From the NCBI RefSeq assembly GCF_045679555.1, contig NC_092091.1, positions 79,624,144 to 79,688,143 of the forward strand: DNA of 64,000 nucleotides. The letters are read 5' to 3'. This stretch comes from Salvelinus alpinus (taxonomy: Eukaryota; Chordata; Actinopteri; Salmoniformes; Salmonidae). Shown one piece after another: positions 6,301 to 32,347 of the stretch. The notes under the pieces are model-generated. The model saw only the letters and a program-made list of their open reading frames with translations, did no database searches and was not told the DNA's origin. Positions within the stretch are counted from its first letter, which is position 1, and every line of letters begins with the position of its first letter. A program made the translations under genes and the position numbers.

Positions 6301-9300
6301 TCCTACCGTGTTGTACCGCCCACTGAGAATCCTACCATGTTGTAACACCCACTGAGAATCCTACCATGTTGTAACGCCCACTGAGACTCCTACCATGTTG
6401 TAACGCCCACTGAGACTCCTACCATGTTGTACCACCCACTGAGACTCCTACCATGTTGGCCCACCCACTGAGACTCCTACCATGTTGTACCGCCCACTGA
6501 GAGTCCCACCATGTTGTAATGCCCACTGAGACTCCTACCATGTTGTAATGCCCACTGAGACTCCTACCATGTTGTACCACCCACTGAGACTCCTACCATG
6601 TTGTACCACCCACTGAGACTCCTACCATGTTGTACCACCCACTGAGACTCCTACCATGTTGTCCCGCCCACTGAGAGTCCCACCATGTTGTAACGTCCAC
6701 TGAAACTCCTACCGTGTTGTAACGCCCACTGAGACTCCTACCATGTTGTACCACCCACTGAGATTCCTACCATGTTGTACCGCCCACTGAGACTCCTACC
6801 ATGTTGTAACGCCCACTGAGACTCCTACCATGTTGTACCACCCACTGAGACTCCTACCATGTTGTAACACCCACTGTTGTACCACCCACTGAGACTCCTA
6901 CCATGTTGTAACGCCCACTGAGACTCCTACCATGTTGTAACGCCCACTGAGACTCCTACCATGTTGTACCGCCCACTGAGACTCCTACCATGTTGTAACG
7001 CCCACTGAGACTCCTACCATGTTGTACCGCCCACTGAGACTCCTACCATGTTGTAACGCCCACTGAGACTCCTACCATGTTGTACCGCCCACTGAGACTC
7101 CTACCATGTTGTAACGCCCACTGAGACTCCTACCATGTTGTAACGCCCACTGAGACTCCTACCATGTTGTACCGCCCACTGAGACTCCTACCATGTTGTA
7201 CCGCCCACTGAGACTCCTACCATGTTGTACCGCCCACTAAGACTCCTACCATGTTGTACCGCCCACTGAGACTCCTACCATGTTGTACCGCCCACTGAGA
7301 ATCCTACCATGTTGTAACGCCCACTGAGACTCCTACCATGTTGTAACGCCCACTGAGACTCCTACCATGTTGTAACGTCCACTGAGACTCCTACCATGTT
7401 GTAACACCCACTGAGACTCCTACCATGTTGTACCGCCCACTGAGACTCCTACCATGTTGTAACACCCACTGAGACTCCTACCATGTTGTAACGCCCACTG
7501 AGACTCCACTGAGACTCCTACCATGTTGTAACGCCCACTGAGTCTCCTACCATGTTGTACCGCCCACTGAGACTCCTACCATGTTGTACCGCCCACTGAG
7601 ACTCCTACCATGTTGTAACGCCCACTGAGACTCCTACCATGTTGTACCGCCCACTGAGACTCCTACCATGTTGTAACGCCCACTGAGACTCCTACCGTGT
7701 TGTAACGCCCACTGTGACTCCTACCGTGTTGTAACGCCCACTGAGACTCCTACCGTGTTGTACCGCCCACTGAGAATCCTACCATGTTGTAACACCCACT
7801 GAGAATCCTACCATGTTGTAACGCCCACTGAGACTCCTACCATGTTGTAACGCCCACTGAGACTCCTACCATGTTGTACCACCCACTGAGACTCCTACCA
7901 TGTTGGCCCACCCACTGAGACTCCTACCATGTTGTACCGCCCACTGAGAGTCCCACCATGTTGTAATGCCCACTGAGACTCCTACCATGTTGTAATGCCC
8001 ACTGAGACTCCTACCATGTTGTACCACCCACTGAGACTCCTACCATGTTGTACCACCCACTGAGACTCCTACCATGTTGTACCACCCACTGAGACTCCTA
8101 CCATGTTGTACCGCCCACTGAGAGTCCCACCATGTTGTAACGTCCACTGAAACTCCTACCGTGTTGTAACGCCCACTGAGACTCCTACCATGTTGTACCA
8201 CCCACTGAGATTCCTACCATGTTGTACCGCCCACTGAGACTCCTACCATGTTGTAACGCCCACTGAGACTCCTACCATGTTGTACCACCCACTGAGACTC
8301 CTACCATGTTGTAACACCCACTGTTGTACCACCCACTGAGACTCCTACCATGTTGTAATGCCCACTGAGACTCCTACCATGTTGTAACGCCCACTGAGAC
8401 TCCTACCATGTTGTAACGCCCACTGAGACTCCTACCATGTTGTACCGCCCACTGAGACTCCTACCATGTTGTACCGCCCACTGAGACTCCTACCATGTTG
8501 TAACGCCCACTGAGACTCCTACCATGTTGTAATGCCCACTGAGACTCCTACCATGTTGTAACGCCCACTGAGACTCCTACCATGTTGTAACGCCCACTGA
8601 GACTCCTACCATGTTGTACCGCCCACTGAGACTCCTACCATGTTGTACCGCCCACTGAGACTCCTACCATGTTGTAACGCCCACTGAGACTCCTACCATG
8701 TTGTAACGCCCACTGAGACTCCTACCATGTTGTACCGCCCACTGAGACTCCTACCATGTTGTACCACCCACTGAGACTCCTACCATGTTGTAACGCCCAC
8801 TGAGACTCCTACCATGTTGTAACGCCCACTGAGACTCCTACCATGTTGTAACGCCCACTGATACTCCTACCATGTTGTAACGCCCACTGTGACTCCTACC
8901 ATGTTGTACCGCCCACTGAGACTCCTACCATGTTGTACCGCCCACTGAGACTCCTACCATGTTGTACCGCCCACTGAGACTCCTACCATGTTGTAACGCC
9001 CACTGAGACTCCTACCATGTTGTACCGCCCACTAAGACTCCTACCATGTTGTACCGCCCACTGAGACTCCTACCATGTTGTAACGCCCACTGAGACTCCT
9101 ACCATGTTGTACCACCCACTGAGACTCCTACCATGTTGTAACACCCACTGTTGTACCACCCACTGAGTCTCCTACCATGTTGTAATGCCCACTGAGACTC
9201 CTACCATGTTGTAACGCCCACTGAGACTCCTACCATGTTGTAACGCCCACTGAGACTCCTACCATGTTGTACCGCCCACTGAGACTCCTACCATGTTGTA

Positions 9301-12300
9301 ACGCCCACTGAGACTTCTACCATGTTGTACCGCCCACTGAGACTCCTACCATGTTGTACCGCCCACTGAGACTCCTACCATGATGTACCGCCCACTGAGA
9401 CTCCTACCATGTTGTACCGCCCACTGAGACTCCTACCATGTTGTAACGCCCACTGAGACTCCTACCATGTTGTACCGCCCACTGAGATTCCTACCATGTT
9501 GTAACGCCCACTGAGACTCCTACCATGTTGTACCGCCCACTGAGAGTCCTACCATGTTGTACCGCCCACTGAGACTCCTACCATGTTGTAACGCCCACTG
9601 AGACTCCTACCATGTTGTAACGCCCACTGAGACTCCTACCATGTTGTACCGCCCACTGAGACTCCTACCATGTTGTACCGCCCACTGAGACTCCTACCAT
9701 GTTGTACCGCCCACTGAGAGTCCTACCATGTTGTACCGCCCACTGAGACTCCTACCATGTTGTAACGCCCACTGAGACTCCTACCATGTTGTACCGCCCA
9801 CTGAGACTCCTACCATGTTGTAACGCCCACTGAGACTCCTACCATGTTGTAACGCCCACTGAGACTCCTACCATGTTGTACCGCCCACTGAGACTCCTAC
9901 CATGTTGTACCGCCCACTGAGACTCCTACCATGTTGTACCGCCCACTGAGACTCCTACCATGTTGTACCGCCCACTGAGACTCCTACCATGTTGTAACGC
10001 CCACTGAGACTCCTACCATGTTGTAACGCCCACTGAGACTCCTACCATGTTGTACCGCCCACTGAGACTCCTACCTTGTTGTACCGCCCACTGAGACTCC
10101 TACCATGTTGTACCGCCCACTGAGACTCCTACCATGTTGTACCGCCCACTGAGACTCCTACCATGTTGTAACGCCCACTGAGACTCCTACCATGTTGTAC
10201 CGCCCACTAAGACTCCTACCATGTTGTACCGCCCACTGAGACTCCTACCATGTTGTAACGCCCACTGAGACTCCTACCATGTTGTACCGCCCACTAAGAC
10301 TCCTACCGTGTTGTACCGCCCACTGAGACTCCTACCGTGTTGTACCGCCCACTGAGACTCCTACCGTGTTGTAACGCCCACTGAGACTCCTACCGTGTTG
10401 TAACGCCCACTGAGACTCCTACCATGTTGTACCGCCCACTAAGACTCCTACCATGTTGTACCACCCACTGAGACTCCTACCATGTTGTACCGCCCACTGA
10501 GACTCCTACCATGTTGTAACGCCCACTGAGACTCCTACCATGTTGTACCGCCCACTGAGACTCCTACCATGTTGTACCGCCCACTGAGACTCCTACCATG
10601 TTGTACCGCCCACTGAGACTCCTACCATGTTGTACCGCCCACTGAGACTCCTACCATGTTGTAACGCCCACTGAGACTCCTACCATGTTGTACCGCCCAC
10701 TGAGACTCCTACCATGTTGTAACGCCCACTGAGACTCCTACCATGTTGTACCGCCCACTGAGACTCCTACCATGTTGTAACGCCCACTGAGACTCCTACC
10801 ATGTTGTAACGCCCACTGAGACTCCTACCATGTTGTACCGCCCACTGAGACTCCTACCATGTTGTACCGCCCACTGAGACTCCTACCATGTTGTACCGCC
10901 CACTGAGACTCCTACCATGTTGTACCGCCCACTGAGACTCCTACCATGTTGTACCGCCCACGGAGACTCCTACCATGTTGTACCGCCCACTGAGACTCCT
11001 ACCATGTTGTAACGCCCACTGAGACTCCTACCATGTTGTACCGCCCACTGAGATTCCTACCATGTTGTAACGCCCACTGAGTCTCCTACCATGTTGTAAC
11101 GCCCACTGAGACTCCTACCATGTTGTACCGCCCACTAAGACTCCTACCATGTTGTACCACCCACTGAGACTCCTACCATGTTGTAACGCCCACTGAGACT
11201 CCTACCATGTTGTACCGCCCACTGAGACTCCTACCATGTTGTAACGCCCACTGAGACTCCTACCATGTTGTACCGCCCACTGAGACTCCTACCATGTTGT
11301 ACCGCCCACTGAGACTCCTACCATGTTGTAGCGCCCACTGAGACTCCTACCATGTTGTACCGCCCACTGAGACTCCTACCATGTTGTACCGCCCACTGAG
11401 ACTCCTACCATGTTGTAACGCCCACTGAGACTCCTACCATGTTGTAACGCCCACTGAGACTCCTACCATGTTGTAACGCCCACTGAGACTCCTACCATGT
11501 TGTACCGCCCACTGAGACTCCTACCATGTTGTAACGCCCACTGAGACTCCTACCATGTTGTACCGCCCACTGAGACTCCTACCATGTTGTAACGCCCACT
11601 GAGACTCCTACCATGTTGTACCGCCCACTGAGACTCCTACCATGTTGTAACGCCCACTGAGACTCCTACCATGTTGTAACGCCCACTGAGACTCCTACCA
11701 TGTTGTACCGCCCACTGAGACTCCTACCATGTTGTACCGCCCACTGAGACTCCTACCATGTTGTACCGCCCACTAAGACTCCTACCATGTTGTACCGCCC
11801 ACTGAGACTCCTACCATGTTGTACCGCCCACTGAGAATCCTACCATGTTGTAACGCCCACTGAGACTCCTACCATGTTGTAACGCCCACTGAGACTCCTA
11901 CCATGTTGTAACGTCCACTGAGACTCCTACCATGTTGTAACACCCACTGAGACTCCTACCATGTTGTACCGCCCACTGAGACTCCTACCATGTTGTAACG
12001 CCCACTGAGACTCCTACCGTGTTGTAACGCCCACTGTGACTCCTACCGTGTTGTAACGCCCACTGAGACTCCTACCGTGTTGTACCGCCCACTGAGAATC
12101 CTACCATGTTGTAACACCCACTGAGAATCCTACCATGTTGTAACGCCCACTGAGACTCCTACCATGTTGTAACGCCCACTGAGACTCCTACCATGTTGTA
12201 CCACCCACTGAGACTCCTACCATGTTGGCCCACCCACTGAGACTCCTACCATGTTGTACCGCCCACTGAGAGTCCCACCATGTTGTAATGCCCACTGAGA

Positions 12301-13674
12301 CTCCTACCATGTTGTAATGCCCACTGAGACTCCTACCATGTTGTACCACCCACTGAGACTCCTACCATGTTGTACCACCCACTGAGACTCCTACCATGTT
12401 GTACCACCCACTGAGACTCCTACCATGTTGTACCGCCCACTGAGAGTCCCACCATGTTGTAACGTCCACTGAAACTCCTACCGTGTTGTAACGCCCACTG
12501 AGACTCCTACCATGTTGTACCACCCACTGAGATTCCTACCATGTTGTACCGCCCACTGAGACTCCTACCATGTTGTAACGCCCACTGAGACTCCTACCAT
12601 GTTGTACCACCCACTGAGACTCCTACCATGTTGTAACACCCACTGTTGTACCGCCCACTGAGACTCCTACCATGTTGTAATGCCCACTGAGACTCCTACC
12701 ATGTTGTAACGCCCACTGAGACTCCTACCATGTTGTAACGCCCACTGAGACTCCTACCATGTTGTACCGCCCACTGAGACTCCTACCATGTTGTACCGCC
12801 CACTGAGACTCCTACCATGTTGTAACGCCCACTGAGACTCCTACCATGTTGTAACGCCCACTGAGACTCCTACCATGTTGTACCGCCCACTGAGACTCCT
12901 ACCATGTTGTACCACCCACTGAGACTCCTACCATGTTGTAACGCCCACTGAGACTCCTACCATGTTGTAACGCCCACTGAGACTCCTACCATGTTGTAAC
13001 GCCCACTGATACTCCTACCATGTTGTAACGCCCACTGTGACTCCTACCATGTTGTACCGCCCACTGAGACTCCTACCATGTTGTACCGCCCACTGAGACT
13101 CCTACCATGTTGTACCGCCCACTGAGACTCCTACCATGTTGTAACGCCCACTGAGACTCCTACCATGTTGTACCGCCCACTAAGACTCCTACCATGTTGT
13201 ACCGCCCACTGAGACTCCTACCATGTTGTAACGCCCACTGAGACTCCTACCATGTTGTACCACCCACTGAGACTCCTACCATGTTGTAACACCCACTGTT
13301 GTACCACCCACTGAGTCTCCTACCATGTTGTAATGCCCACTGAGACTCCTACCATGTTGTAACGCCCACTGAGACTCCTACCATGTTGTAACGCCCACTG
13401 AGACTCCTACCATGTTGTACCGCCCACTGAGACTCCTACCATGTTGTAACGCCCACTGAGACTTCTACCATGTTGTACCGCCCACTGAGACTCCTACCAT
13501 GTTGTACCGCCCACTGAGACTCCTACCATGATGTACCGCCCACTGAGACTCCTACCATGTTGTACCGCCCACTGAGACTCCTACCATGTTGTAACGCCCA
13601 CTGAGACTCCTACCATGTTGTACCGCCCACTGAGATTCCTACCATGTTGTAACGCCCACTGAGACTCCTACCAT
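3357..13674. repeat. 29-bp satellite, left half (about 355 copies)
   Basis: A head-to-tail array of a 29-bp unit (core CTCCTACCATGTTGTAACGC, then CCACTGAGA). The main variable site is TAACGCC versus TACCGCC versus TACCACC. Rare variants recur at long spacing: a TTGGCCCAC variant at 6454, 7901 and 12223; a deletion junction CTGAGACTCCACTGAGACTCC at 6051 and 7498; the ACACCCACTGTTGTACC junction several times. These show duplications of 1.4 kb and 4.1-4.3 kb blocks. No coding sequence. Confidence 0.98.
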
Positions 13675-14469
13675 ACCTTAAGGGACATCTGGTACGGGAG
13701 CCGTATGATCGGTGAGGATTCTCCCATTGGAAATGTACGGTCCCTTACCTGACGTCCGACTTCGTCCGGGAAAATCGCGGACGGCGTCGGGCCGAGGGCG
13801 CGGGGGAGCTCTTTCGGGAAGTCATGTCGGAAATCGTTTCGGACTTTCGGTCACCGTTTTATAAAAATAACAAATTTTTGACTTGCTCCCCGCATTCTCG
13901 AAAATTCCCACAAGGCGGAAAATAAATCATATTGCAGGCGCACGAACACGGGGCAAACGAGCGCGGCCTTTTCTCCTAAACGGAAAATATTTCGAAGACG
14001 AAACTCGGCGAGCGTAGGTTTGGAGTAAAGGGAAGTTGGCCCCGAACAAGATGGCGTCGAGGCTTCGGCGCTTTTTGAGTTATGGCCATTTTTCTGGGAT
14101 CAAAGGTCAAAAACGAAAAGTAGGGTGCGATTTGACCGCTTCACGTCAAAGTACATAAGCGTACGGTGTCAGGGAAAAAAAAAACTGCCGTTTATCTATC
14201 GTAATTTAAGAGAAATAGTACATTGTCCATTTGGTGATGTTCACGAAGAGGAATTTTTTTTTCAAAAAAATCACAGATCCAGTTGCAGTTTGTTCACACG
14301 AACATTTTTAAAGTGGGTCTCGAAGCTCTGCGAGAATTCTGTGATTTTATGTGATTTTATGAAGTAACACACACTCATTTAACCCTCTGTTAATAAGTCA
14401 GTTCTTAACATAAAGACTTAAAGCTCAATATTATATAAGAGCCTACCCCAAGGAGGGTATGTGTTCACG

Positions 14470-15470
14470 TTCAGCTTCCTATGTCAACTGGAAGTACCTT
14501 AAAATGGTGCATAGGGTCAGGTTTGAAGGGTAATAAAGGTCAGATCTTTTCAAAACTTCACTTGTGTGATTAGACAACCCTCATGAACTGTAATCAGTCA
14601 TTTTTCCCAACAGATGTCAAAGAAAAGCTCTCTCACACAAACACACACACACAAAAAGGAAGGATGGAGTGAAAAAGTACGGTGCTTAAAGACACACAAA
14701 GCCTGCAACGGTATTACTATTATCTCCAGGCCGTGCCGAGTTCAACGAGATGCCCCGCTTGACCGTAGCTTGTTCGGTCTGAGCGCAGCGACCGTTACAA
14801 GAAGACGGACCCAAATGACCTATTGACCTCATGTCAATTTTATTTGCTTTTGGGAGACAGAGAGAGAACCGTTAAGGTTAGAAGCACAATTTCACCTCAG
14901 GAATGTTCTTTAGGTCCTCCCGATCTGTGCAAGCCTAACCTTGACCTTGTGGCATTAACCCTTACCAGTTAAAAGCTGGTGTTTACATCAAACAATTTAC
15001 AATGACATGTTGCCCCATAGGAATACATTGACTACACCTCTCAATTCAACCTGAAGCCTATGTGGGTTCTGAATGTCTTATGAACCTGTCTTTGATGTCA
15101 GTCCATCAGGCCACCATGAGGTCTACCTGTGTCGATTCTAAGCTTCCTGGAGCAACCGGAAGTGGTTAAATCACCCTAAAAGTGTTTGCCATAGCCAACC
15201 TGCAGTTTGAGAGAAATAGTGTCTCAGCCCTATGTAAATCAGTCAATTTTTAACGTACAGACTTAAAACTCAGGATTCTGTAAAAGCCTACTCCAGTGAT
15301 GATATGTGTTTATTTATAGCTTCCTGTGACAACCGGAAGTGCCATAACTGGTGTCTAATGGGCTGTTTCGAAGGGTTAAAAATGTCAAATCTTTCCAAAA
15401 CTTCATATATGTGAATAGACAACCCTCATGAACTGTAAATCAGTCCTTCATCCCATCAGATGTCAAAAAA
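14470..15470. repeat. Internal module copy 1 of the 8.7-kb element
   Basis: Contains three landmarks that recur through the element: a CCGTGCCGAGTTCAACGAGA block (about 14730), an AACCGGAAGTGG block (about 15153), and a GACAACCGGAAGTGCC block (about 15330). The same landmarks recur near 16832/17256/17437, 17671/18094/18275 and 19536/19967/20141, with an extra pair at 19100/19280. Copies are diverged by scattered substitutions, so the duplications are older than those in the flanking satellite. Confidence 0.8.
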
Positions 15471-15529
15471 AAAAAAAACACACTGACACAGAAATGATGG
15501 AGGGACACACTGAGGGGCTAAGAGGCAGA

Positions 15530-15860
15530 CAGTGCCTGCAGTAGTTACTTTTGTTCCAACTTTTAAAGAACCGTCAGACCTAGAGTTCTGAAAATTTACA
15601 AACCTGTTCTAGACCTCAAGTCGATTGTGCACAGTGAATTATGTGGCTCTAGAAGGTTCTCGGATCGATAAAAAGCCTCGTGTATTTGCCATGTTTTCAA
15701 GTCATTTTGACCTCAACGAAACGGACGACCTTTAGAAACGTCCCAGAGTTTCAAGACTAGGTGCATTGAAACCGGCTCGGCCCATAGAGACAGAACCCAA
15801 CAAGCCTGTTTGATTGCTCATTCAAGGACCCCGTAGCAAGGCAATGAAAAAAGTGGAATT
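15530..15860. repeat. Internal module C, copy 1 of 2
   Basis: A block of about 290 bp with CTAGAGTTCTGAAAATTTAC and CATTGAAACCGGCTCGGCCC that recurs near 18450-18750. Both copies sit shortly upstream of a palindrome (16018 and 18786), so module C and a palindrome were apparently duplicated together. Confidence 0.75.
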
Positions 15861-16017
15861 TCAGCACCAATTAGGGTTTTGCTCGGGCACCGAATGACCT
15901 ATCGAGCCGAAACTTGGGATTCGAGGTCGCCTCACATAGGGCTAAACATAATGTGTGAACTGGACCCGCAGCTAGAACATAACTACGTATTATTTGTTTT
16001 ATTATGGTTTAAATAGA

Positions 16018-16767
16018 AAGCGCTGTGAATTTTGGGCCTGCTCTGAACTATGTTATAGTTGGCATCTAAAGGAGTTGGAAAAAGTGAGTTTGGAGTCAGA
16101 TGGTATCAGTTTGGTGTCTGAAAATATCTATTTGACTGATGGACACTGACTTGCTCGTTGACTTTTGTACATTTGCAATATGTTTCAACGGGGAGGTACC
16201 ATGAGGAAAAAGCGACACGATGAAATTTCACGAAACGACCGATGGAGAGGAACCACTATCACTGCCCGACCATCCTGAGGTCATCAGACCGTTGACTTTT
16301 GCATTTGTAAAGTATTTAAAGAATGCCCGTTAGATTTGCAATATGATTCAACATCACATCATATTGCAAATGCCCGTTATATTTGCAATATGATGTGATG
16401 TTGAATCATATTGCAAATATAACGGGCATTCTTTAAATACTTTATAAATGCAAAAGTCAACGGTCTGATGACCTCAGGATGGCCGGGCAGTGATAGTGGT
16501 TCCTCTCCATCGCTCGTTTTGTTAAATTTCATCATGTCGCTTTTGCCTCATGGTCCCTCCCCGTTGAAACATGTTGCAAATGGACAAAAGTCAACTAGCA
16601 AGTCAACTAGCAAGTGTCAACAAAAGTTAGCTAGCAAGTGTCCATCAGTCAATTACATCTTTTCAGACACCAAACTGATACCATCTGACTCCAAACTCAC
16701 TTTTTCCAACTCCTTTAGAAGCCAACTATCAAATATTTCAGAGCAGGCCCAAAATTCACAGCGCCTT
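16018..16767. repeat. Large foldback palindrome (arms about 360-380 bp, spacer 9 bp)
   Basis: The left arm (16018-16371) and right arm (16381-16767) are inverted copies around GCCCGTTAT (16372-16380). The outer ends read GCGCTGTGAATTTTGGGCC and its complement. Arms are near-identical at the centre and diverge outward, with a small tandem duplication (CAAGTCAACTAG) in the right arm. Each inner arm contains the smaller hairpin TTTGCAATATGAT...ATCATATTGCAAA. If transcribed it would form a very long hairpin. Confidence 0.9.
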
Positions 16768-18785
16768 CCATGAATGCAGCAAAATAGCATTCTGAAATCA
16801 CCACTAAAATGACATCACCATAATCTCCAGGCCGTGCCGAGTTCAACGAGATGCCCCGCTTGGCCGTAGCTCGCTCGGTCTGAGCGCAGCGACCGTTACA
16901 GGAAGACAGAGCAAAATGACCTTTTGACCTCCATGTCAATTTTATTTGCTTTTGGGAGACAGCGAGAGAACCGTTAGGGTTAGAAACACAATTTCACCTC
17001 AGGAATGTTCTTAAGGTCCCCCCGATCTGTGCAAGCCTAACATTGACCCTGTGGCATTAACCCTTAATAGTTAAATGAAGGTGTTTAGATCAAACAGTTT
17101 ACAATGACATTTCGCCCCATAGGAATACATTGACTGCACCTCCAAATTCAACCTGAAGCCTATGTGGGTTATGAAGGTCTTATGAACCTGTCTTTGATAA
17201 CAATCCATCAGGACACTATGAGGTCTACCTGTGTTGATTTTAAGCTACCTGGACCAACCGGAAGTGGTTAAAACCACCCTAAAAGGTGTCCTGATATACA
17301 TGACTTGCAATTTTGAAAATCACTGCATTCAACCCTATGTAGATCAGTCAATTCTAAACGTATAGACTTAAAATTCAGGATTCTGTAACAGCATACCCCT
17401 ATCAAGATATGTGTTTACCTATAGCTTCCTGTGCCAACCGGAAGTGCCTTAAAATGGGGTCATGGGTGCTGTTTGGAAGGGTTAAAAAAGTCAGATCTTT
17501 CCAAAACGTTAAGTGTGTGATTAGGCAACCTTCATGAACTGTAAATCAGTCATTTCTCTAAACAGATGTCAAAGAAAAGCTCTCACACACACACACAGCA
17601 GGGATGGAGTGAAAAAGTACGGTGCTTAAAGACAAACAAAGCCGACAATGGCATGACCATTATCTCTAGGCCGTGCCGAGTTCAACGAGATGCCCCGCTT
17701 GACCGTAGCTCATTCGGTCTGGCCACAGCGACAGTGACAAGAAGACAGAGCAAAATGACCTTTTGACCTCAATGTCAATTTCATTTGCTTTTGGGAGACA
17801 GAGAGAGAACCGTTAGGGTTAGAAACACAATTTCACCTCAGGAATGTTCTTTAGGTCCTCCCGATCTGTGCAAGCCTAACCTTGACCTTGTGGCATTAAC
17901 CCTTAACAGTGAAAACAGGTTTTTACATCTCACAGTTTACATTGACATCTCTCTCCATAGGAATACATTGACTGCACCTCCAAATTCAACCTGAAGCCTA
18001 TGTGGGTTATGAAGGTCTTAGGAACCTGTCTTTGATGTCAGTCCATCAAGCCATCATAAGGTCTACCTGTGTCAATTCTAAGCTTCCTGGAGAAACCGGA
18101 AGTGGTTAAAACCACCCTAAAAGTGTTTGCAATACCCAACCTGCAGTTTGAGAGAAATAGTGCATTCAGCCCTATGTAAATCACTGAGTTCTTAATGTAT
18201 AGACTTAAAACTCAGGATTCTGTAAAAGCCTACTCCAATGAGGATATGTGTTTACTGTCAGCTTCCTGTGCAAACCGGAAGTGCCATAATTGGTGTCAAA
18301 AGAGCTGTTTCGAAGGGTTAAAAAAGTTAAATCTTTCCAAAACTTCATATTTGTGATTAGGCAACCTTCCTGAACTGTAAATCAGTCATTAGTCCCATCA
18401 GATTTCAAAGAAAAATTTACACACCCTAACAGAAATGATGGAGGGACACACTGAGGGGCTAAGAGGCAGACAGTGCCTGTGGTAGTTACTTTTGTTCCAA
18501 CTTTTAAAGAACCGTTAGACCTAGAGTTCTGAAAATTTACAAACCTGTTCTAGACCTCAGGTCGATTGTGCACAGTGAATTATGTGGCTCTAGAAGGTTC
18601 TCGGATCGATAAAAAGCCTCGTGTATTTGCCATGTTTTCAATTCATTTTGACCTCAACGAAACTGGCGACGTTTAGAAAAGTCCCAGAGTCTCAAGACTA
18701 GGTGCATTGAAACCGGCTCGGCCCATAGAGACAAACCCCAACAAGCCTGTTCGATTTTGTATTTCTAAAGTATTTAAAGTATTTA

Positions 18786-19006
18786 AAGAATGCACGTTAA
18801 ATTTGCAATATGATTCAACACATCATATTGCAAAAGTAACAGTGTGTGTTATGTTTGCAATATGATTCAACACATCATATTGCAAACGTAACAGTGTGTG
18901 TTACTTTTGCAATATGATGTGTTGAATCATATTGCAAACATAACAGTGTGTGTTACTTTTGCAATATGATGTGTTGAATCATATTGCAAATTTAACGTGC
19001 ATTCTT
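18786..19006. repeat. Second foldback palindrome, related to the first
   Basis: Inverted arms of about 100 bp starting GAATGCACGTTAAATTTGC and ending with its complement. Four tandem copies of the hairpin TTTGCAATATGAT-TCAACAC-ATCATATTGCAAA (18802, 18854, 18906, 18958) are separated by AGTGTGTGTTA spacers. The same hairpin core appears twice at the centre of the 16018-16767 palindrome. Confidence 0.92.
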
Positions 19007-20319
19007 AAAAATAAACCCTATGTGGGTTATGAATGTCTTATGAACCTGTCTTTGATAACAATCCATCAAGCCACTATGAGGTCTACCTGTGTTGATTCTA
19101 AGCTTCCTGGAGCAACCGGCAGTGGTTAAATCACCCTAAAAGTGTTTTGCCATACCCAACCAGCAGTTTGTGATATATAGTGCATGCAACCCTGTGTAAA
19201 TCAGTCAGTTCTTAACGTATAGACTTAAAACTCAGGATTCTCTAAGAGCATACCCCGATCAGGATATCTCTTTACTTATAGCTTCCTGTGACAACCAGAA
19301 GGGCCTTAAGATGGTGTCATAGATGCTGTTTTGAAGGGTTAAAAGGTCAGAACTTTTCAAAACTTCATATATGTGATTAGACAACCCTCATGAACTGTAA
19401 TCAGTCATTTCTCCCAACAGATGTCAAAGAAAAGCTCTCTCACACAAACATACACACACAAAAAGCAAGGATGGAGTGAAAAAGTACGGTGCTTAAAGAC
19501 ACACAAAGCCTGCAATGGCATTACTATTATCTCCAGGCCGTGCCGAGTTCAACGAGATGCCCTGCTTAACCGTAGCTTGCTCGGTCTGAGCGCAGCGACC
19601 GTTACAAGAAAACGGACACAAATGACCTATTGACCTCCATGTCAATTTGATTTGCTTTTGGGAGACAGAGAGAGAACCGTTCAGGTTAGAAGCACAATTT
19701 TACCTCAGGAACACTCCTAAGGTCCTCCCGATCTGTGCAAGCCTAACCTTGACTCTGTGGCATTAACCCTTCACAGTTAAAAGAAGGTGTTTACATCAAA
19801 CAGTATACAATGAAATGTAGCCCCATAGGAATACATTGAGTGCACCTCTAAATTCAACCTGAAGCCTATGTGGGTTATGAATGTCTTATGAACCTGTCTT
19901 TGATAACAATCCATCAGGCCACTATGAGGTCTACCTGTGTTGATTCTAAGCTTCCTGGAGCAACCGGAAGTGGTTAAAAAACCCTAAAAGTGTTTTGCCA
20001 TAGCCAACCAGCAGTTTGTGATTTATAGTGCATTCAACCCTGTGTAAATCAGTCAGTTCTTAACGTATAGACTTAAAACTCAGGATTCTCTAAGAGCATA
20101 CCCAGATCAGCATATGTCTTTACCTATAGCTTCCTGTGCCAACCGGAAGTGCCTTAAAATGGGGTCATAGGTGCTGTTTAAAAGGGTTAAAAAAGTCAGA
20201 TCTTTCCAAAACTTTAAGTGTGTGATTAGGCAACCTTCATGAACTGTAAATCAGTCATTTCTCGAAACAGATGTCAAAGAAAAGCTCACACACACACAAA
20301 CAAGTCCAAACTGTTTGTA

Positions 20320-21275
20320 CACCTGGCATTATTTTTAGGTTACCAGATGCCCTGGTTGAAACTGCGTTTAGGGGGCATCCAGACTTCCAACCCGCTCTGG
20401 GAGCACTGTTCGACGGACAAAAATCAGTGGGTGTTGGCCTGAGTGATTTATGGAGGTTTTCCAAAAAAGTCAGAAAATATTCTATGTTTTTTTTCTGAAA
20501 AATATTTTTTGTTTTTTATTCTCGAGTCAATGGCCTGAGTGATTTATGGAGTTTTTCCAAAAAACTCGAAAAATATTCTAAGTCCAAACTTTTCGTGCAC
20601 CTGGTATTTTTTTTAGGTTACCAGATGCCTGGATGAAATTGCGTTTAGGGGGCATCCGGACTTCCATACCCGCTCTGGGAGCACTATTCGACGGACGAAA
20701 ATCAATGGGTGTTGGCCTGAGTGATTTATGGAGGTTTTCCAAAAAAGTCAGAAGATATTCTATGTTTTTTTTCTGAAAAATATTTTTAGTTTTTTATTCT
20801 CGACTCAATGGCCTGAGTGATTTATGGAGTTTTTCCAAAAAACTCGAAAAATATTCTAAGTCCAAACTTTTCGTGCACCTGGTATTTTTTTTAGGTTACC
20901 AGATGCCTGGATGAAATTGCGTTTAGGGGGCATCCGGACTTCCATACCCGCTCTGGGAGCACTATTCGACGGACGAAAATCAATGGGTGTTGGCCTGAGT
21001 GATTTATGGAGGTTTTCCAAAAAAGTCAGAAAATATTCTGTTTTTATTTCTGAAAAATATTTTATGTTTTTTATTCTCGAGTCAATGGGGTCTGGCCTGA
21101 GTGATTTAAGGAGGTTTCCCAAAAAAGTAAAAAAAAAATATTTTTCATTTTTTCATGTCATTTTTCAAAACGGTTTTAAATGCTTTTAGGTGTCATCCAG
21201 ACGTCCATGGGAGCACTATACTACGGCCCCAAATCAATGGGTGCTGGCCTGAGTGATTTATGGAGGTTTGGGGGG
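20320..21275. repeat. About 276-bp tandem repeat in the 8.7-kb element
   Basis: Three copies beginning near 20330, 20610 and 20885 with TTAGGTTACCAGATGCC and GGGGGCATCCGGACTTCC, plus a partial fourth. Each copy ends in T-rich sequence (AAATATTTTTTGTTTTTTATTC). The small open frames here are shadows of the repeat. Confidence 0.85.
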
Positions 21276-22140
21276 TGATAAGTACAAGTAAACATTTATA
21301 AAAAATGATGATAGTAAAATGTGACTAAAGTATTTTCATACACTTCTTATTCATGTGTAATTGACGTACAAATCGAAAGAATTTCAAAAAACGGTCCAGA
21401 AAGCACTTTTTTAAATGGAATATATGTTTTTTCCACATTTTTAACATTTTTGACTTTTAACTTTTGACTTTTGACTTCCTATGAAATCACATTCCAAATG
21501 CACAAAACATATTCCTTAAGTACAAGTAAACATTTATAAAAAATTATGACAGTAAAATGTGACTAAAGTATTTTCATACAGTTCTTATACATGTGTAATT
21601 GACATAAAAATCGAAAGAATTTCGAAAAACGATCCAGAAAGTACTTTTTTAAAGGGGGTGATACATTTTTTCCAAATTTTTGACATTTTTGACTTTTGAC
21701 TTTTGACTTCCTATGAAATCACATTCCAAATGCACAAAACATATTCCTTAAGTCCAAATAAATATGTCAAAAATATTATGTTAATAGAATTTGACAAAAG
21801 TATTTTCATACAGTTCTTACACATGTGTAATTGACATAAAAATCGAAAGAATTTCGAAAAACGGTCCAGAAAGCACTTTTTTAAAGGGGGTGATACATTT
21901 TTTCCAAATTTTTGACATTTTTGACTTTTGACTTTTGACTTCCTATGAAATCACATTCCAAATGCACAAAACATATTGCTTAAGGCAAAATAAAAATGTC
22001 AAAAAAATTATGTTAATAAAATTTGACAAAAGTATTTTCATACAGTTCTTACACATGTGTAATTGACATAAAAATCAAAAGAATTTCGAAAAACGGTCCA
22101 GAAAGCACTTTTTTAAGGGGGTGATAAGTTTTTGCCAAAA
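21276..22140. repeat. About 238-bp AT-rich tandem repeat in the 8.7-kb element
   Basis: Four copies starting near 21279, 21517, 21752 and 21990, with ACGGTCCAGAAAGCACTTTT and GACTTTTGACTTCCTATGAA as landmarks. The final copy breaks off near 22140 and is followed by about 260 bp of apparently unique terminal sequence ending in a G-run and TTCCCTTA. Confidence 0.88.
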
Positions 22141-22403
22141 TTGTCAAAATCTCAAAATTTGACTCTTGGGTCTTGACTTGCGTTACAGTAAGCCTATGAA
22201 AAAATAAGATGGAACTCACACGCCCACTATAGGAATTTTGGGGTGTTACACAGCTCATTTACAATATGGCATTTGCCACCAACTTTGCACGAAACAGCGC
22301 CGGTTGTAATATGAAATCCCACACAATCCCATCGTGTGTATGGTTCGCTCTCTGCCAATAAGTTGCCATGTTATTTTGTACAATTGGGGGGGGAGTTCCC
22401 TTA

Positions 22404-25400
22404 CATGTTGTACCGCCCACTGAGAGTCCTACCATGTTGTACCGCCCACTGAGACTCCTACCATGTTGTAACGCCCACTGAGACTCCTACCATGTTGTAA
22501 CGCCCACTGAGACTCCTACCATGTTGTAACGCCCACTGAGACTCCTACCATGTTGTACCGCCCACTGAGACTCCTACCATGTTGTACCGCCCACTGAGAC
22601 TCCTACCATGTTGTACCGCCCACTGAGAGTCCTACCATGTTGTACCGCCCACTGAGACTCCTACCATGTTGTAACGCCCACTGAGACTCCTACCATGTTG
22701 TACCGCCCACTGAGACTCCTACCATGTTGTAACGCCCACTGAGACTCCTACCATGTTGTAACGCCCACTGAGACTCCTACCATGTTGTACCGCCCACTGA
22801 GACTCCTACCATGTTGTACCGCCCACTGAGACTCCTACCATGTTGTACCGCCCACTGAGACTCCTACCATGTTGTACCGCCCACTGAGACTCCTACCATG
22901 TTGTAACGCCCACTGAGACTCCTACCATGTTGTAACGCCCACTGAGACTCCTACCATGTTGTACCGCCCACTGAGACTCCTACCTTGTTGTACCGCCCAC
23001 TGAGACTCCTACCATGTTGTACCGCCCACTGAGACTCCTACCATGTTGTACCGCCCACTGAGACTCCTACCATGTTGTAACGCCCACTGAGACTCCTACC
23101 ATGTTGTACCGCCCACTAAGACTCCTACCATGTTGTACCGCCCACTGAGACTCCTACCATGTTGTAACGCCCACTGAGGCTCCTACCATGTTGTACCGCC
23201 CACTAAGACTCCTACCGTGTTGTACCGCCCACTGAGACTCCTACCGTGTTGTACCGCCCACTGAGACTCCTACCGTGTTGTAACGCCCACTGAGACTCCT
23301 ACCGTGTTGTAACGCCCACTGAGACTCCTACCATGTTGTACCGCCCACTAAGACTCCTACCATGTTGTACCACCCACTGAGACTCCTACCATGTTGTACC
23401 GCCCACTGAGACTCCTACCATGTTGTAACGCCCACTGAGACTCCTACCATGTTGTAACGCCCACTGAGACTCCTACCATGTTGTACCGCCCACTGAGACT
23501 CCTACCATGTTGTAACGCCCACTGAGACTCCTACCATGTTGTACCGCCCACTGAGACTCCTACCATGTTGTAACGCCCACTGAGACTCCTACCATGTTGT
23601 AACGCCCACTGAGACTCCTACCATGTTGTACCGCCCACTAAGACTCCTACCATGTTGTACCGCCCACTGAGACTCCTACCATGTTGTACCGCCCACTGAG
23701 ACTCCTACCATGTTGTAACGCCCACTGAGACTCCTACCATGTTGTACCGCCCACTGAGACTCCTACCATGTTGTACCGCCCACTGAGACTCCTACCATGT
23801 TGTAACGCCCACTGAGACTCCTACCATGTTGTACCGCCCACTAAGACTCCTACCATGTTGTACCGCCCACTGAGTCTCCTACCATGTTGTAACGCCCACT
23901 GAGACTCCTACCATGTTGTACCGCCCACTAAGACTCCTACCATGTTGTACCGCCCACTGAGACTCCTACCGTGTTGTAACGCCCACTGAGACTCCTACCG
24001 TGTTGTAACGCCCACTGAGACTCCTACCATGTTGTACCGCCCACTAAGACTCCTACCATGTTGTACCACCCACTGAGACTCCTACCATGTTGTACCGCCC
24101 ACTGAGACTCCTACCATGTTGTAACGCCCACTGAGACTCCTACCATGTTGTACCGCCCACTGAGACTCCTACCATGTTGTACCGCCCACTGAGATTCCTA
24201 CCATGTTGTACCGCCCACTGAGACTCCTACCATGTTGTACCGCCCACTGAGACTCCTACCATGTTGTACCGCCCACTGAGACTCCTACCATGTTGTAACA
24301 CCCACTGAGACTCCTACCATGTTGTAACGCCCACTGAGACTCCTACCATGTTGTACCGCCCACTGAGACTCCTACCATGTTGTAACGCCCACTGAGACTC
24401 CTACCATGTTGTACCGCCCACTGAGACTCCTACCATGTTGTAACGCCCACTGAGACTCCTACCATGTTGTAACGCCCACTGAGACTCCTACCATGTTGTA
24501 CCGCCCACTAAGACTCCTACCATGTTGTACCGCCCACTGAGACTCCTACCATGTTGTACCGCCCACTGAGTCTCCTACCATGTTGTAACGCCCACTGAGA
24601 CTCCTACCATGTTGTAACGCCCACTGAGACTCCTACCATGTTGTAACGTCCACTGAGACTCCTACCATGTTGTAACACCCACTGAGACTCCTACCATGTT
24701 GTACCGCCCACTGAGACTCCTACCATGTTGTAACACCCACTGAGACTCCTACCATGTTGTAACGCCCACTGAGACTCCACTGAGACTCCTACCATGTTGT
24801 AACGCCCACTGAGTCTCCTACCATGTTGTACCGCCCACTGAGACTCCTACCATGTTGTACCGCCCACTGAGACTCCTACCATGTTGTAACGCCCACTGAG
24901 ACTCCTACCATGTTGTACCGCCCACTGAGACTCCTACCATGTTGTAACGCCCACTGAGACTCCTACCGTGTTGTAACGCCCACTGTGACTCCTACCGTGT
25001 TGTAACGCCCACTGTGACTCCTACCGTGTTGTAACGCCCACTGAGACTCCTACCATGTTGTACCGCCCACTGAGACTCCTACCATGTTGTAACACCCACT
25101 GAGATTCCTACCATGTTGTAACGCCCACTGAGACTCCTACCATGTTGTAACGCCCACTGAGACTCCTACCATGTTGTACCACCCACTGAGACTCCTACCA
25201 TGTTGTACCACCCACTGAGACTCCTACCAGGTTGTACCGCCCACTGAGAGTCCCACCATGTTGTAATGCCCACTGAGACTCCTACCATGTTGTAATGCCC
25301 ACTGAGACTCCTACCATGTTGTACCACCCACTGAGACTCCTACCATGTTGTACCACCCACTGAGACTCCTACCATGTTGTACCACCCACTGAGACTCCTA

Positions 25401-28400
25401 CCATGTTGTACCACCCACTGAGACTCCTACCATGTTGTAACGTCCACTGAAACTCCTACCGTGTTGTAACGCCCACTGAGACTCCTACCATGTTGTACCG
25501 CCCACTGAGATTCCTACCATGTTGTACCGCCCACTGAGACTCCTACCATGTTGTACCGCCCACTGAGACTCCTACCATGTTGTAACGCCCACTGAGACTT
25601 CTACCATGTTGTACCGCCCACTGAGACTCCTACCATGTTGTACCGCCCACTGAGACTCCTACCATGTTGTACCGCCCACTGAGACTCCTACCATGTTGTA
25701 CCGCCCACTGAGACTTCTACCATGTTGTACCGCCCACTGAGACTCCTACCATGTTGTACCGCCCACTGAGACTCCTACCATGTTGTACCGCCCACTGAGA
25801 CTCCTACCATGTTGTACCGCCCACTGAGACTCCTACCATGTTGTAACGCCCACTGAGACTCCTACCATGTTGTACCGCCCACTGAGATTCCTACCATGTT
25901 GTAACGCCCACTGAGACTCCTACCATGTTGTACCGCCCACTGAGAGTCCTACCATGTTGTACCGCCCACTGAGACTCCTACCATGTTGTAACGCCCACTG
26001 AGACTCCTACCATGTTGTAACGCCCACTGAGACTCCTACCATGTTGTACCGCCCACTGAGACTCCTACCATGTTGTACCGCCCACTGAGACTCCTACCAT
26101 GTTGTACCGCCCACTGAGAGTCCTACCATGTTGTACCGCCCACTGAGACTCCTACCATGTTGTAACGCCCACTGAGACTCCTACCATGTTGTACCGCCCA
26201 CTGAGACTCCTACCATGTTGTAACGCCCACTGAGACTCCTACCATGTTGTAACGCCCACTGAGACTCCTACCATGTTGTACCGCCCACTGAGACTCCTAC
26301 CATGTTGTACCGCCCACTGAGACTCCTACCATGTTGTACCGCCCACTGAGACTCCTACCATGTTGTACCGCCCACTGAGACTCCTACCATGTTGTAACGC
26401 CCACTGAGACTCCTACCATGTTGTAACGCCCACTGAGACTCCTACCATGTTGTACCGCCCACTGAGACTCCTACCATGTTGTACCGCCCACTGAGACTCC
26501 TACCATGTTGTACCGCCCACTGAGACTCCTACCATGTTGTACCGCCCACTGAGACTCCTACCATGTTGTAACGCCCACTGAGACTCCTACCATGTTGTAC
26601 CGCCCACTAAGACTCCTACCATGTTGTACCGCCCACTGAGACTCCTACCATGTTGTAACGCCCACTGAGACTCCTACCATGTTGTACCGCCCACTAAGAC
26701 TCCTACCATGTTGTACCGCCCACTGAGACTCCTACCGTGTTGTAACGCCCACTGAGACTCCTACCGTGTTGTAACGCCCACTGAGACTCCTACCGTGTTG
26801 TACCGCCCACTAAGACTCCTACCATGTTGTACCACCCACTGAGACTCCTACCATGTTGTACCACCCACTGAGACTCCTACCATGTTGTAACGCCCACTGA
26901 GACTCCTACCATGTTGTACCGCCCACTGAGACTCCTACCATGTTGTACCGCCCACTGAGACTCCTACCATGTTGTACCGCCCACTGAGACTCCTACCATG
27001 TTGTACCGCCCACTGAGACTCCTACCATGTTGTACCGCCCACTGAGACTCCTACCATGTTGTAACGCCCACTGAGACTCCTACCATGTTGTACCGCCCAC
27101 TGAGACTCCTACCATGTTGTAACGCCCACTGAGACTCCTACCATGTTGTACCGCCCACTGAGACTCCTACCATGTTGTAACGCCCACTGAGACTCCTACC
27201 ATGTTGTAACGCCCACTGAGACTCCTACCATGTTGTACCGCCCACTAAGACTCCTACCATGTTGTACCGCCCACTGAGACTCCTACCATGTTGTACCGCC
27301 CACTGAGACTCCTACCATGTTGTAACGCCCACTGAGACTCCTACCATGTTGTAACGCCCACTGAGACTCCTACCATGTTGTAACGTCCACTGAGACTCCT
27401 ACCATGTTGTAACACCCACTGAGACTCCTACCATGTTGTACCGCCCACTGAGACTCCTACCATGTTGTAACACCCACTGAGACTCCTACCATGTTGTAAC
27501 GCCCACTGAGACTCCACTGAGACTCCTACCATGTTGTAACGCCCACTGAGTCTCCTACCATGTTGTACCGCCCACTGAGACTCCTACCATGTTGTACCGC
27601 CCACTGAGACTCCTACCATGTTGTAACGCCCACTGAGACTCCTACCATGTTGTACCGCCCACTGAGACTCCTACCATGTTGTAACGCCCACTGAGACTCC
27701 TACCGTGTTGTAACGCCCACTGTGACTCCTACCGTGTTGTAACGCCCACTGTGACTCCTACCGTGTTGTAACGCCCACTGAGACTCCTACCATGTTGTAC
27801 CGCCCACTGAGACTCCTACCATGTTGTAACACCCACTGAGATTCCTACCATGTTGTAACGCCCACTGAGACTCCTACCATGTTGTAACGCCCACTGAGAC
27901 TCCTACCATGTTGTACCACCCACTGAGACTCCTACCATGTTGTACCACCCACTGAGACTCCTACCAGGTTGTACCGCCCACTGAGAGTCCCACCATGTTG
28001 TAATGCCCACTGAGACTCCTACCATGTTGTAATGCCCACTGAGACTCCTACCATGTTGTACCACCCACTGAGACTCCTACCATGTTGTACCACCCACTGA
28101 GACTCCTACCATGTTGTACCACCCACTGAGACTCCTACCATGTTGTAACGTCCACTGAAACTCCTACCGTGTTGTAACGCCCACTGAGACTCCTACCATG
28201 TTGTACCGCCCACTGAGATTCCTACCATGTTGTACCGCCCACTGAGACTCCTACCATGTTGTACCGCCCACTGAGACTCCTACCATGTTGTTCCGCCCAC
28301 TGAGACTCCTACCATGTTGTACCGCCCACTGAGGCTCCTACCATGTTGTACCACCCACTGAAACTCCTACCATGTTGTACCGCCCACTGAGACTCCTACC

Positions 28401-31400
28401 ATGTTGTACCGCCCACTGAGACTCCTACCATGTTGTACCGCCCACTGAGACTCCTACCGTGTTGTAACGTCCACCGAGACTCCTACCATGTTGTAATGCC
28501 CACAGACTCCTACCATGTTGTAATGCCCACAGAATCCTACCATGTTGTACCACCCACTGAGACTCCTACCATGTTGTAACGTCCACTGAAACTCCTACCA
28601 TGTTGTACCACCCACTGAGACTCCTACCATGTTGTACCACCCACTGAGACTCCTACCAGGTTGTACCGCCCACTGAGAGTCCCACCATGTTGTAATGCCC
28701 ACTGAGACTCCTACCATGTTGTAATGCCCACTGAGACTCCTACCATGTTGTACCACCCACTGAGACTCCTACCATGTTGTACCACCCACTGAGACTCCTA
28801 CCATGTTGTACCACCCACTGAGACTCCTACCATGTTGTAACGTCCACTGAAACTCCTACCGTGTTGTAACGCCCACTGATACTCCTACCATGTTGTACCG
28901 CCCACTGAGATTCCTACCATGTTGTACCGCCCACTGAGACTCCTACCATGTTGTACCGCCCACTGAGACTCCTACCATGTTGTTCCGCCCACTGAGACTT
29001 CTACCATGTTGTACCGCCCACTGAGGCTCCTACCATGTTGTACCACCCACTGAAACTCCTACCATGTTGTACCGCCCACTGAGACTCCTACCATGTTGTA
29101 CCGCCCACTGAGACTCCTACCATGTTGTACCGCCCACTGAGACTCCTACCGTGTTGTAACGTCCACCGAGACTCCTACCATGTTGTAATGCCCACAGACT
29201 CCTACCATGTTGTAATGCCCACAGAATCCTACCATGTTGTACCACCCACTGAGACTCCTACCATGTTGTAATGCCCACTGAGACTCCTACCATGTTGTAA
29301 CGCCCACTGAGACTCCTACCATGTTGTACCGCCCACTGAGACTCCTACCATGTTGTACCGCCCACTGAGACTCCTACCATGTTGTACCGCCCACTGAGAC
29401 TCCTACCATGTTGTACCGCCCACTGAGACTCCTACCATGTTGTAACGCCCACTGAGACTCCTACCATGTTGTAACGCCCACTGAGACTCCTACCATGTTG
29501 TACCACCCACTGAGACTCCTACCATGTTGTACCGCCCACTGAGACTCCTACCATGTTGTAACGCCCACTGAGACTCCTACCATGTTGTACCGCCCACTGA
29601 GACTCCTACCATGTTGTACCGCCCACTGAGACTCCTACCATGTTGTACCGCGCACTGAGACTCCTACCATGTTGTACCGCCCACTGAGACTCCTACCATG
29701 TTGTACCGCCCACTGAGACTTCTACCATGTTGTAACGCCCACTGAGACTCCTACCATGTTGTAACGCCCACTGAGACTCCTACCATGTTGTACCGCCCAC
29801 TGAGACTCCTACCATGTTGTAACGCCCACTGAGACTCCTACCATGTTGTACCGCCCACTGAGACTCCTACCATGTTGTAACGTCCACTGAAACTCCTACC
29901 GTGTTGTAACGCCCACTGAGACTCCTACCATGTTGTACCGCCCACTGAGACTCCTACCATGTTGTAACGCCCACTGAGACTCCTACCATGTTGTACCGCC
30001 CACTGAGATTCCTACCATGTTGTACCGCCCACTGAGACTCCTACCATGTTGTACCGCCCACTGAGACTCCTACCATGTTGTTCCGCCCACTGAGACTCCT
30101 ACCATGTTGTACCGCCCACTGAGGCTCCTACCATGTTGTACCACCCACTGAAACTCCTACCATGTTGTACCGCCCACTGAGACTCCTACCATGTTGTACC
30201 GCCCACTGAGACTCCTACCATGTTGTACCGCCCACTGAGACTCCTACCGTGTTGTAACGTCCACCGAGACTCCTACCATGTTGTAATGCCCACAGACTCC
30301 TACCATGTTGTAATGCCCACAGAATCCTACCATGTTGTACCACCCACTGAGATTCCTACCATGTTGTAATTCCCACTGAGACTCCTACCATGTTGTAATT
30401 CCCACTGAGACTCCTACCATGTTGTAACGCCCACTGAGACTCCTACCATGTTGTAATGCCCACTGTGACTCCTACCATGTTGTAATGCCCACAGAATCCT
30501 ACCATGTTGTACCACCCACTGAGATTCCTACCATGTTGTAATTCCCACTGAGACTCCTACCATGTTGTAACGTCCACTGAGACTCTTACCGTGTTGTAAC
30601 GCCCACTGAGACTCCTACCATGTTGTACCGCCCACTGAGACTCCTACCGTGTTGTAACGCCCACTGAGACTCCTACCGTGTTGTAACACCCACTGAGACT
30701 CCTACCATGTTGTAACGCCCACTGAGACTCCTACCGTGTTGTAACACCCACTGAGACTCCTACCATGTTGTAACACCCACTGAGACTCCTACCATGTTGT
30801 AACGCCCACTGAGACTCCTACCATGTTGTACCGCCCACTGAGACTCCTACCATGTTGTACCGCCCACTGAGACTCCTACCATGTTGTAACGCCCACTGAG
30901 ACTCCTACCATGTTGTAACGCCCACTGAGACTCCTACCATGTTGTACCACCCACTGAGACTCCTACCATGTTGTAACGCCCACTGAGACTCCTACCATGT
31001 TGTACCGCCCACTGAGACTCCTACCATGTTGTACCGCCCACTGAGACTCCTACCATGTTGTAACGCCCACTGAGACTCCTACCATGTTGTAACGCCCACT
31101 GAGACTCCTACCATGTTGTACCACCCACTGAGACTCCTACCGTGTTGTAACGCCCACTGAGACTCCTACCGTGTTGTACCGCCCACTGAGACTCCTACCA
31201 TGTTGTAACACCCACTGAGAGTCCTACCATGTTGTACCAGCCACTGAGACTCCTACCGTGTTGTAACGCCCACTGATACTCCTACCGTGTTGTAACGCCC
31301 ACTGAGACTCCTACCATGTTGTACCGCCCACTGAGACTCCTACCATGTTGTACCGCCCACTGAGATTCCTACCATGTTGTACCGCCCACTGAGACTCCTA

Positions 31401-32347
31401 CCATGTTGTAACGCCCACTGAGACTCCTACCATGTTGTACCGCCCACTGAGACTCCTACCGTGCTGTACCGCCCACTGAGACTCCTACCATGTTGTAACG
31501 CCCACTGAGACTCCTACCATGTTGTAACACCCACTGAGACTCCTACCATGTTGTAACGCCCACTGAGACTCCTACCATGTTGTAACGCCCACTGAGACTC
31601 CTACCATGTTGTAACACCCACTGAGACTCCTACCATGTTGTAACGCCCACTGAGACTCCTACCATGTTGTAACGCCCACTGAGACTCCTACCATGTTGTA
31701 ACACCCACTGAGACTCCTACCATGTTGTAACGCCCACTGAGACTCCTACCGTGCTGTACCGCCCACTGAGACTCCTACCATGTTGTAACACCCACTGAGA
31801 CTCCTACCATGTTGTACCACCCACTGAGATTCCTACCATGTTGTACCGCCCACTGAGACTCCTACCATGTTGTAACGCCCACTGAGACTCCTACCATGTT
31901 GTACCACCCACTGAGACTCCTACCATGTTGTAACACCCACTGTTGTACCACCCACTGAGACTCCTACCATGTTGTAACACCCACTGAGACTCCTACCATG
32001 TTGTAACGCCCACTGAGACTCCTACCATGTTGTAACGCCCACTGAGACTCCTACCATGTTGTAACACCCACTGAGACTCCTACCATGTTGTAACGCCCAC
32101 TGAGACTCCTACCATGTTGTAACGCCCACTGAGACTCCTACCATGTTGTAACACCCACTGAGACTCCTACCATGTTGTAACGCCCACTGAGACTCCTACC
32201 GTGCTGTACCGCCCACTGAGACTCCTACCATGTTGTAACACCCACTGAGACTCCTACCATGTTGTAACGCCCACTGAGACTCCTACCATGTTGTAACGCC
32301 CACTGAGACTCCTACCATGTTGTAACGCCCACTGAGACTCCTACCAT
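22404..32347. repeat. 29-bp satellite, right half (about 343 copies)
   Basis: Same unit, orientation and register as the left half. The rare CTACCTTG variant at 22981 matches one at 10071, and the CTGAGACTCCACTGAG junction recurs at 24769 and 27506. Around 28471, 29163 and 30261 a distinctive cluster (CCACCGAGACTCC, then two CCCACAGA deletions) repeats three times. The array ends at CTACCATTCCTAACGGGG. Confidence 0.98.

Follow-up and report, generated by a model that had tools for sequence, protein, structure and literature searches.

A window of 64,000 nucleotides from Salvelinus alpinus (NCBI RefSeq assembly GCF_045679555.1, contig NC_092091.1, positions 79,624,144 to 79,688,143 of the forward strand) was analysed, in which a 29-bp satellite is interrupted by an 8.7 kb non-coding insert; window positions are used below and features are collected in table 1. 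The insert is read here as a non-autonomous element, derived by deletion from a Crypton-like tyrosine-recombinase (YR) DNA transposon, that would be mobilised, with no target duplication, by the recombinase of a rare full-length relative (probability about 0.85), the enzyme probably being borrowed from such a relative in the same genome.

Borders, ends and target sites

The earlier note on this DNA had held that the insert interrupts the satellite and that uninterrupted copies of the same satellite stretch lie at 9524 and 25924, and this was confirmed by exact flank matches. When the two flanks were joined, they matched the window at 9526 (left 1023 bp exact, right 122 bp exact, 594/600 overall) and again at 25926 (143 bp exact on the left, 122 bp on the right, 591/600 overall). 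The 3-bp CAT duplication that had also been claimed was not borne out: AT is carried by the element in 39/40 left ends (a count from a search that requires the preceding C) and only the C is shared with the target. The apparent duplication is one shared C followed by the element's own AT, because both the ends of many copies and the empty sites in tandem arrays read in this way. The borders are 13673-22404 and the target duplication is zero (or one base).

Left ends were compared in 40 copies, of which 30 read C/ATACCT/TAAGGGAC, eight C/ATACA/TAAGGGAC and one C/ATACCTACCT/TAAGGGAC; the remaining copy (L018) is aberrant. At the right end C followed in 42/42 copies, preceded by TTA in 41 and by TAA in L012. 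The possibility that other copies might have different ends had been raised before, and nearly all of those compared share them. For copies lying in tandem arrays, the array was restored uninterrupted, as judged by eye, when ATAC...TTAC was removed after the target C; L027 was ambiguous. Joined to each other, the ends read TCCCTTA-CATACCT-TAAGGGA and resemble a YR core.

For the target consensus, copies in like flanks were collapsed to 31 left and 31 right groups. The deduplicated target showed T(-3) in 27/31, T(-2) in 16/31, A(-1) in 21/31, C(0), A(+1) in 21/31, T(+2) in 18/31 and A(+8) in 21/31, giving the consensus TTAC(N7)A, in which the left-side C(0) is fixed by the way the flanks were cut. 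Both flanks were available at 19 sites; after removal of the duplicates L021 and L028, the 17 remaining empty sites were reconstructed and compared with the joined ends. They agreed at a mean of 8.24/20 positions, other C sites of those flanks at 5.22, and 0/20000 resamplings reached a value as high. As a set, the targets look as would be expected if a site-specific recombinase recognised them as degenerate versions of its own joined ends.

Genomic copies and the recombinase gene

The genome of 2.37 Gb was searched by DNA query and the best 40 candidates were scored per query, copy counts being lower bounds. With a 1 kb left query, the best 40 of 880 first-look candidates were all full-length matches at 96-100%; the best 40 of 144 candidates matched the right-end query at 97-100%, and the best 40 of 344 the left-terminal query at 96-100%. 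Pairing of left and right queries gave at least 62 separate loci on 30 contigs. Copies read comprised 20 whole or nearly so, 19 left and 19 right ends as short stretches, and three additional right ends. The segment order A, modules, X/palindrome, modules, T1, T2, Z was common to the 20 copies, which varied in tandem copy number; L011, L016, L024, L025 and L026 lacked some blocks of modules or one palindrome, and the stretch read for L025 was without the right end. Element sizes were approximately 5.5-12.8 kb in the copies measured, and divergence from the window copy was 0.53-2.05% in the 12 of the 20 copies compared end to end; the family is young. An older, diverged relative (L090:6238-9957, 72-94% in segments) was found directly upstream of copy L048 and joined to it head to tail. 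This older subfamily has the ends ATACATGAAGGGAAC...GTTCCCTTAC and its arms agree over 9/10 bases. The single head-to-tail junction joins two different subfamilies and does not prove a circular intermediate: insertion next to an older end would explain it equally well, and is the preferred reading, since the TTAC with which an element terminates on the right makes an ideal target.

Landing sites were scored for tandem arrays of period 7 or more, which were touched by 20/38 left and 23/42 right flanks compared with 2/20 and 1/20 arbitrary genome points, a few copy flanks being shorter than the 400 bp used for the control points. Counted per copy, 31/61 touched minisatellites against 2/20 control points (Fisher p 0.001). 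One 19-bp satellite was common to eight left flanks, and collapsing of like flanks left 13/31 left groups touching arrays. On large contigs, 10/57 copies lay <0.5 Mb from a contig end (0.85 expected). Sampling took the best-matching copies, and the rates therefore apply to young copies alone; minisatellites may also be commoner near chromosome ends, which would make the two preferences non-independent.

The earlier note had suggested looking for autonomous relatives that share the ends and encode a transposase; a relative with the same ends was found at C20:81978-94736, with a gene that matches YRs at family level. It is longer than the window element (99.5% identity with it over 936 bp at the left end and 99.2% over 1856 bp at the right) and sits in a 37-bp array with a zero-duplication empty site (by eye). 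The gene (L091:3300-6245, the element starting upstream of L091) is internal, lies between module copies and has seven predicted exons with GT-AG introns and 744 open codons. Its predicted product has an N-terminal C2H2-like zinc-finger region (by eye; best Pfam match zf-C2H2_aberr, E 0.021, below cut-off), a recombinase domain and a basic C-terminus; a TAG reported inside the exon-5 match by six-frame search was read as lying within a predicted intron. Queried with the DNA of exons 4-5, the genome gave 20 candidates, all scored, with 22 matches including fragments. Exons 3-6 were followed in four copies, one of them open and three with stops, gaps or a missing exon, and comparison of the open copy with its nearest decayed counterpart (C17) gave a dN/dS of 0.27 (12 non-synonymous and 12 synonymous changes).

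The window element matched L091:2341-2965 (90.0%) and L091:6829-8219 (94.6%) on either side of the gene, the two matches overlapping at 17423-17724, and its match crosses from left to right of the gene inside a module of approximately 300 bp that is common to both sides. Because the match switches sides within this shared module, the comparison suggests that gene-less forms arise through recombination between modules.

The YR assignment was shown at the level of the family, by profile comparison. A four-sequence family profile (the C20 protein and three homologues chosen from the genome protein-search list) was compared with six reference YRs (bacterial and phage) and matched with a probability of 91.4%, E 9.1e-7 and score 53.8, the maximum of 80 column shuffles being 19.3. 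Homologues in the genome protein search had approximately 30% identity and covered residues 8-169 of 171. The R, K, R, H and Y of the family were in register with R212, K235, R311, H333 and Y342 of lambda Int (letters checked). One homologue matched Phage_int_SAM_1 (E 8.5e-4, 20 bits, just under the curated cut-off of 22.3) and the other two gave no Pfam match. A loose catalytic motif was present in 346/2000 shuffles and a strict one in 44/20000, so motif spacing alone was not relied on. Among solved structures there was one chance-level match for the recombinase (E 0.037), and the viral collections held no relative of it, with three pattern matches of which none was confirmed.

Further recombinase genes were noted in the same genome. 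Three copies at C17:240788, 263031 and 285274 are exactly 22243 bp apart (one read, decayed) and are probably a tandem segmental duplication, and seven related matches at 89-90% lie within 0.46 Mb at C9:57.85-58.31 Mb. A second, distant group of YR genes (approximately 30% identity) was found in L102 (C3), L103 (C10), L104 (C24) and others, in long open frames of up to 2095 aa (length possibly inflated), several near contig ends; the frame in L102 is followed by a short tandem repeat.

In the mechanism proposed, the seven-exon gene of a rare full-length relative would be expressed by splicing and its recombinase supplied in trans. The element would be excised as a circle when the enzyme joined both ends, placing TCCCTTA and TAAGGGA as arms on either side of the 6-7 bp spacer CATACCT, and strand exchange would take place within this spacer. 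The joined site would then recombine with a chromosomal site like it (TTAC, then A at +8), with integration directly after the C and without target duplication. Loss of the recombinase gene would occur by recombination between the flanking modules.

Weighing of the explanations

Several points weigh against a YR element of this kind. In box II of the protein the first residue is T, not the usual H, in all four aligned sequences; the single sequence did not score above shuffles when compared with the YR profile (18.1, where the highest of 60 shuffles reached 20.6), and Pfam, PHROGs and NCBIfam assigned the single protein to no recombinase family. The reference profile has six members only, including two pairs of close relatives, the three added homologues are mutually close, and the exons are predicted and were called by eye. 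In its middle, the C20 copy matches the window element at only 90-95%, and it is therefore taken as a relative and not as the parent. At the ends, approximately 17 bp of target is repeated and the terminal TAAGGG lost at the left junction of L018, which does not fit the restoration of tandem arrays and may be a repair product. Many targets, seen individually, do not stand out, 2-58% of the remaining C positions in their flanks scoring equally. Base order is invariably that of the target at the right junction, and the spacer invariably that of the element at the left, where heteroduplex repair after YR action might yield both.

A single-strand (HUH) element, Helitron-like or IS608-like, inserting directly 3' of TTAC without target duplication would account for the absence of a duplication and for insertion right after a short motif, and TTAC is the target of IS608. 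The ends of the window copy, however, fold no better than shuffles (z -0.82, +0.35). Helitrons have a terminal hairpin and insert between A and T; no terminal hairpin beyond chance was found (window copy only) and insertion follows C. A spacer enclosed by inverted arms, and targets that look like the joined ends, suit a YR, and the relative sharing these ends encodes one, so that an HUH element is held to be unlikely. A derivative of a YR retrotransposon (DIRS or Ngaro) rather than of a DNA transposon is judged quite unlikely. Such retrotransposons carry a reverse transcriptase beside the YR, and no reverse-transcriptase match was obtained in the coding segment of the C20 copy (four frames; spliced protein), nor does the repeat listing of the window element contain a long terminal repeat pair; in favour of this origin, DIRS and Ngaro elements also use YRs and are present in vertebrates, as stated in the available part of PMC3212892.

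CAT on both sides of the window copy would suit a DDE transposon with a 3-bp duplication, and the TTAAGG left end recalls the TTAA target and AGGRR motif given for Kolobok elements in the available part of PMC6004289. Both are very improbable, since in other copies the AT of CAT belongs to the element and the target right of the C varies, the consensus of the targets differs from TTAA, and the relative that carries a gene matches YRs; the Kolobok candidate drawn from the terminus was dropped when the other copies proved to be without a TTAA target. Segmental duplication or an assembly join, in place of transposition, might be suspected from the duplication of the satellite itself in higher-order blocks. 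It is hardly credible given at least 62 loci on 30 contigs with the same ends and, in those read, largely unrelated flanks, and these many independent insertion sites also answer the doubt about assembly joins that the earlier note had expressed. A gene-less derivative of a Crypton-like YR transposon is the reading carried forward.

Architecture, surroundings and known systems

The internal parts that had been described for the insert, namely two foldbacks, repeated modules and two tandem families, were found again, with several module copies of approximately 0.84 kb and periods of 278 and 232. It had also been described as having no long open frame, and the largest stop-to-stop frame within it is 116 aa. 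Ten of its 16 frames of 70 aa or more were scanned against Pfam with sub-threshold matches only, an Rfam scan of the window gave nothing at gathering scores, and one 26-base module motif had no exact match in bacterial/archaeal and viral sequence collections.

Table 1. Features of the window, by position.
Feature	Position	Strand	Basis or remark
Paralogous empty site	9524..9525, junction between the two bases	.	match to joined flanks
Second paralogous empty site	25924..25925	.	match to joined flanks
Target C before left end, only base common to target and element end	13672	+	C before ATAC, 39/40 left ends (search requires the C)
Whole non-autonomous element, 8732 bp, ATACCTTAAGGGAC ... GTTCCCTTAC	13673..22404	+	common left and right ends, empty site 9524/9525
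ATACCT, with C the 7-bp spacer of the inferred recombination core	13673..13678	+	30/40 copies ATACCT
Left arm TAAGGGA of inferred core	13679..13685	+	7-bp inverted match with right arm
Right arm TCCCTTA and terminal C	22397..22404	+	end comparison across copies
Unique left segment A	13675..14371	+	97-100% identity in 20 other mapped copies
Array of ~0.84 kb modules, broken twice by segment X and palindrome	14372..20301	+	
Fold-back 1	16013..16771	.	arms 16147-16371/16381-16605 95% complementary; 16013-16155/16629-16771 92%
Module stretch found on both sides of recombinase gene in autonomous copy; candidate deletion point	17423..17724	+	
Fold-back 2	18782..19010	.	arms 112 nt, 94% complementary
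Tandem family 1, period 278	20302..21088	+	
Tandem family 2, period 232	21279..22139	+	
Unique right segment Z	22168..22404	+	40 scored matches at 97-100%

The 29-bp satellite occupies 3357-13672 and 22405-32347 and has a higher-order block structure; the 1023 bp that precede the insert recur exactly 4148 bp upstream. The window as a whole (1-64000) is very dense in minisatellites of many periods (126 overlapping tandem-repeat rows) and lies approximately 21 Mb from the nearest contig end. A Tc1/mariner-type transposase frame of 263 aa was seen at 1768-2556 on the minus strand (DDE_3, E 8.6e-18; HTH_Tnp_Tc3_2, E 6.1e-8).

The view of the insert as a giant non-autonomous element with discrete borders stands, while the proposal of an undescribed class goes too far, since a YR is encoded by a relative that shares its ends. 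Because of that relative, the element is placed functionally with the Crypton-like YR transposons, provisionally as a new variant and not a new class. Likeness to Cryptons lies in the YR, in the lack of target duplication beyond one shared C and in the many gene-less derivatives. According to the available part of PMC3212892, no terminal repeats were found in animal Cryptons, their non-autonomous derivatives outnumber autonomous copies, and integration via a circle was proposed for them by analogy; non-autonomous Cryptons are recorded from salmon, with families in Repbase, in the available part of PMC5753468. Unlike Cryptons, the window element is built of modules and palindromes over 8.7 kb and has short inverted arms. 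For CryptonA YRs, the part of the published account available gives matches to DUF3504 at E <= 8e-12; the C20 recombinase differs in this respect, the spliced protein of that copy having no Pfam family at E <= 1 and so no DUF3504 match. No published description of the element family was recognised in the literature listings searched. Rather tentatively, the family might represent a vertebrate YR lineage outside the known Crypton groups, marked by a predicted seven-exon spliced zinc-finger recombinase, an att-like core, a Starship-like motif, a preference for minisatellites and chromosome ends, and large gene-less derivatives.

The many near-identical copies, some in tandem arrays that preserve the empty site, allow core, spacer and target preference to be read to the base, and this base-level reading of core and target makes the integration mechanism directly testable. 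The recombinase, if active, would represent a site-specific integrase native to animals and relaxed in its choice of targets.

With the Xenopus T2/Kolobok elements, as presented in the available part of PMC6004289, the family shares amplified internal repeats in a non-autonomous element and an AGG-type terminus. It differs from them in a target consensus that is not TTAA and in a partner that encodes a YR, Kolobok transposases having a DDE domain (PMC6004289, in part). Likeness to Starships of the Hephaestus family lies in probable mobilisation by a YR and in the target motif TTAC(N7)A, which is the same. The Starship captain bears the Pfam name DUF3435, and the C20 gene differs in having no Pfam match and in being internal, not at the 5' end; the elements are of approximately 5.5-12.8 kb and no cargo gene was seen. 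For the fungal Starship Hephaestus, the available part of the published description gives the target motif TTAC(N7)A and a captain YR at the 5' end, and its agreement with the motif seen here prompts one to ask whether the two have a common origin or have converged.

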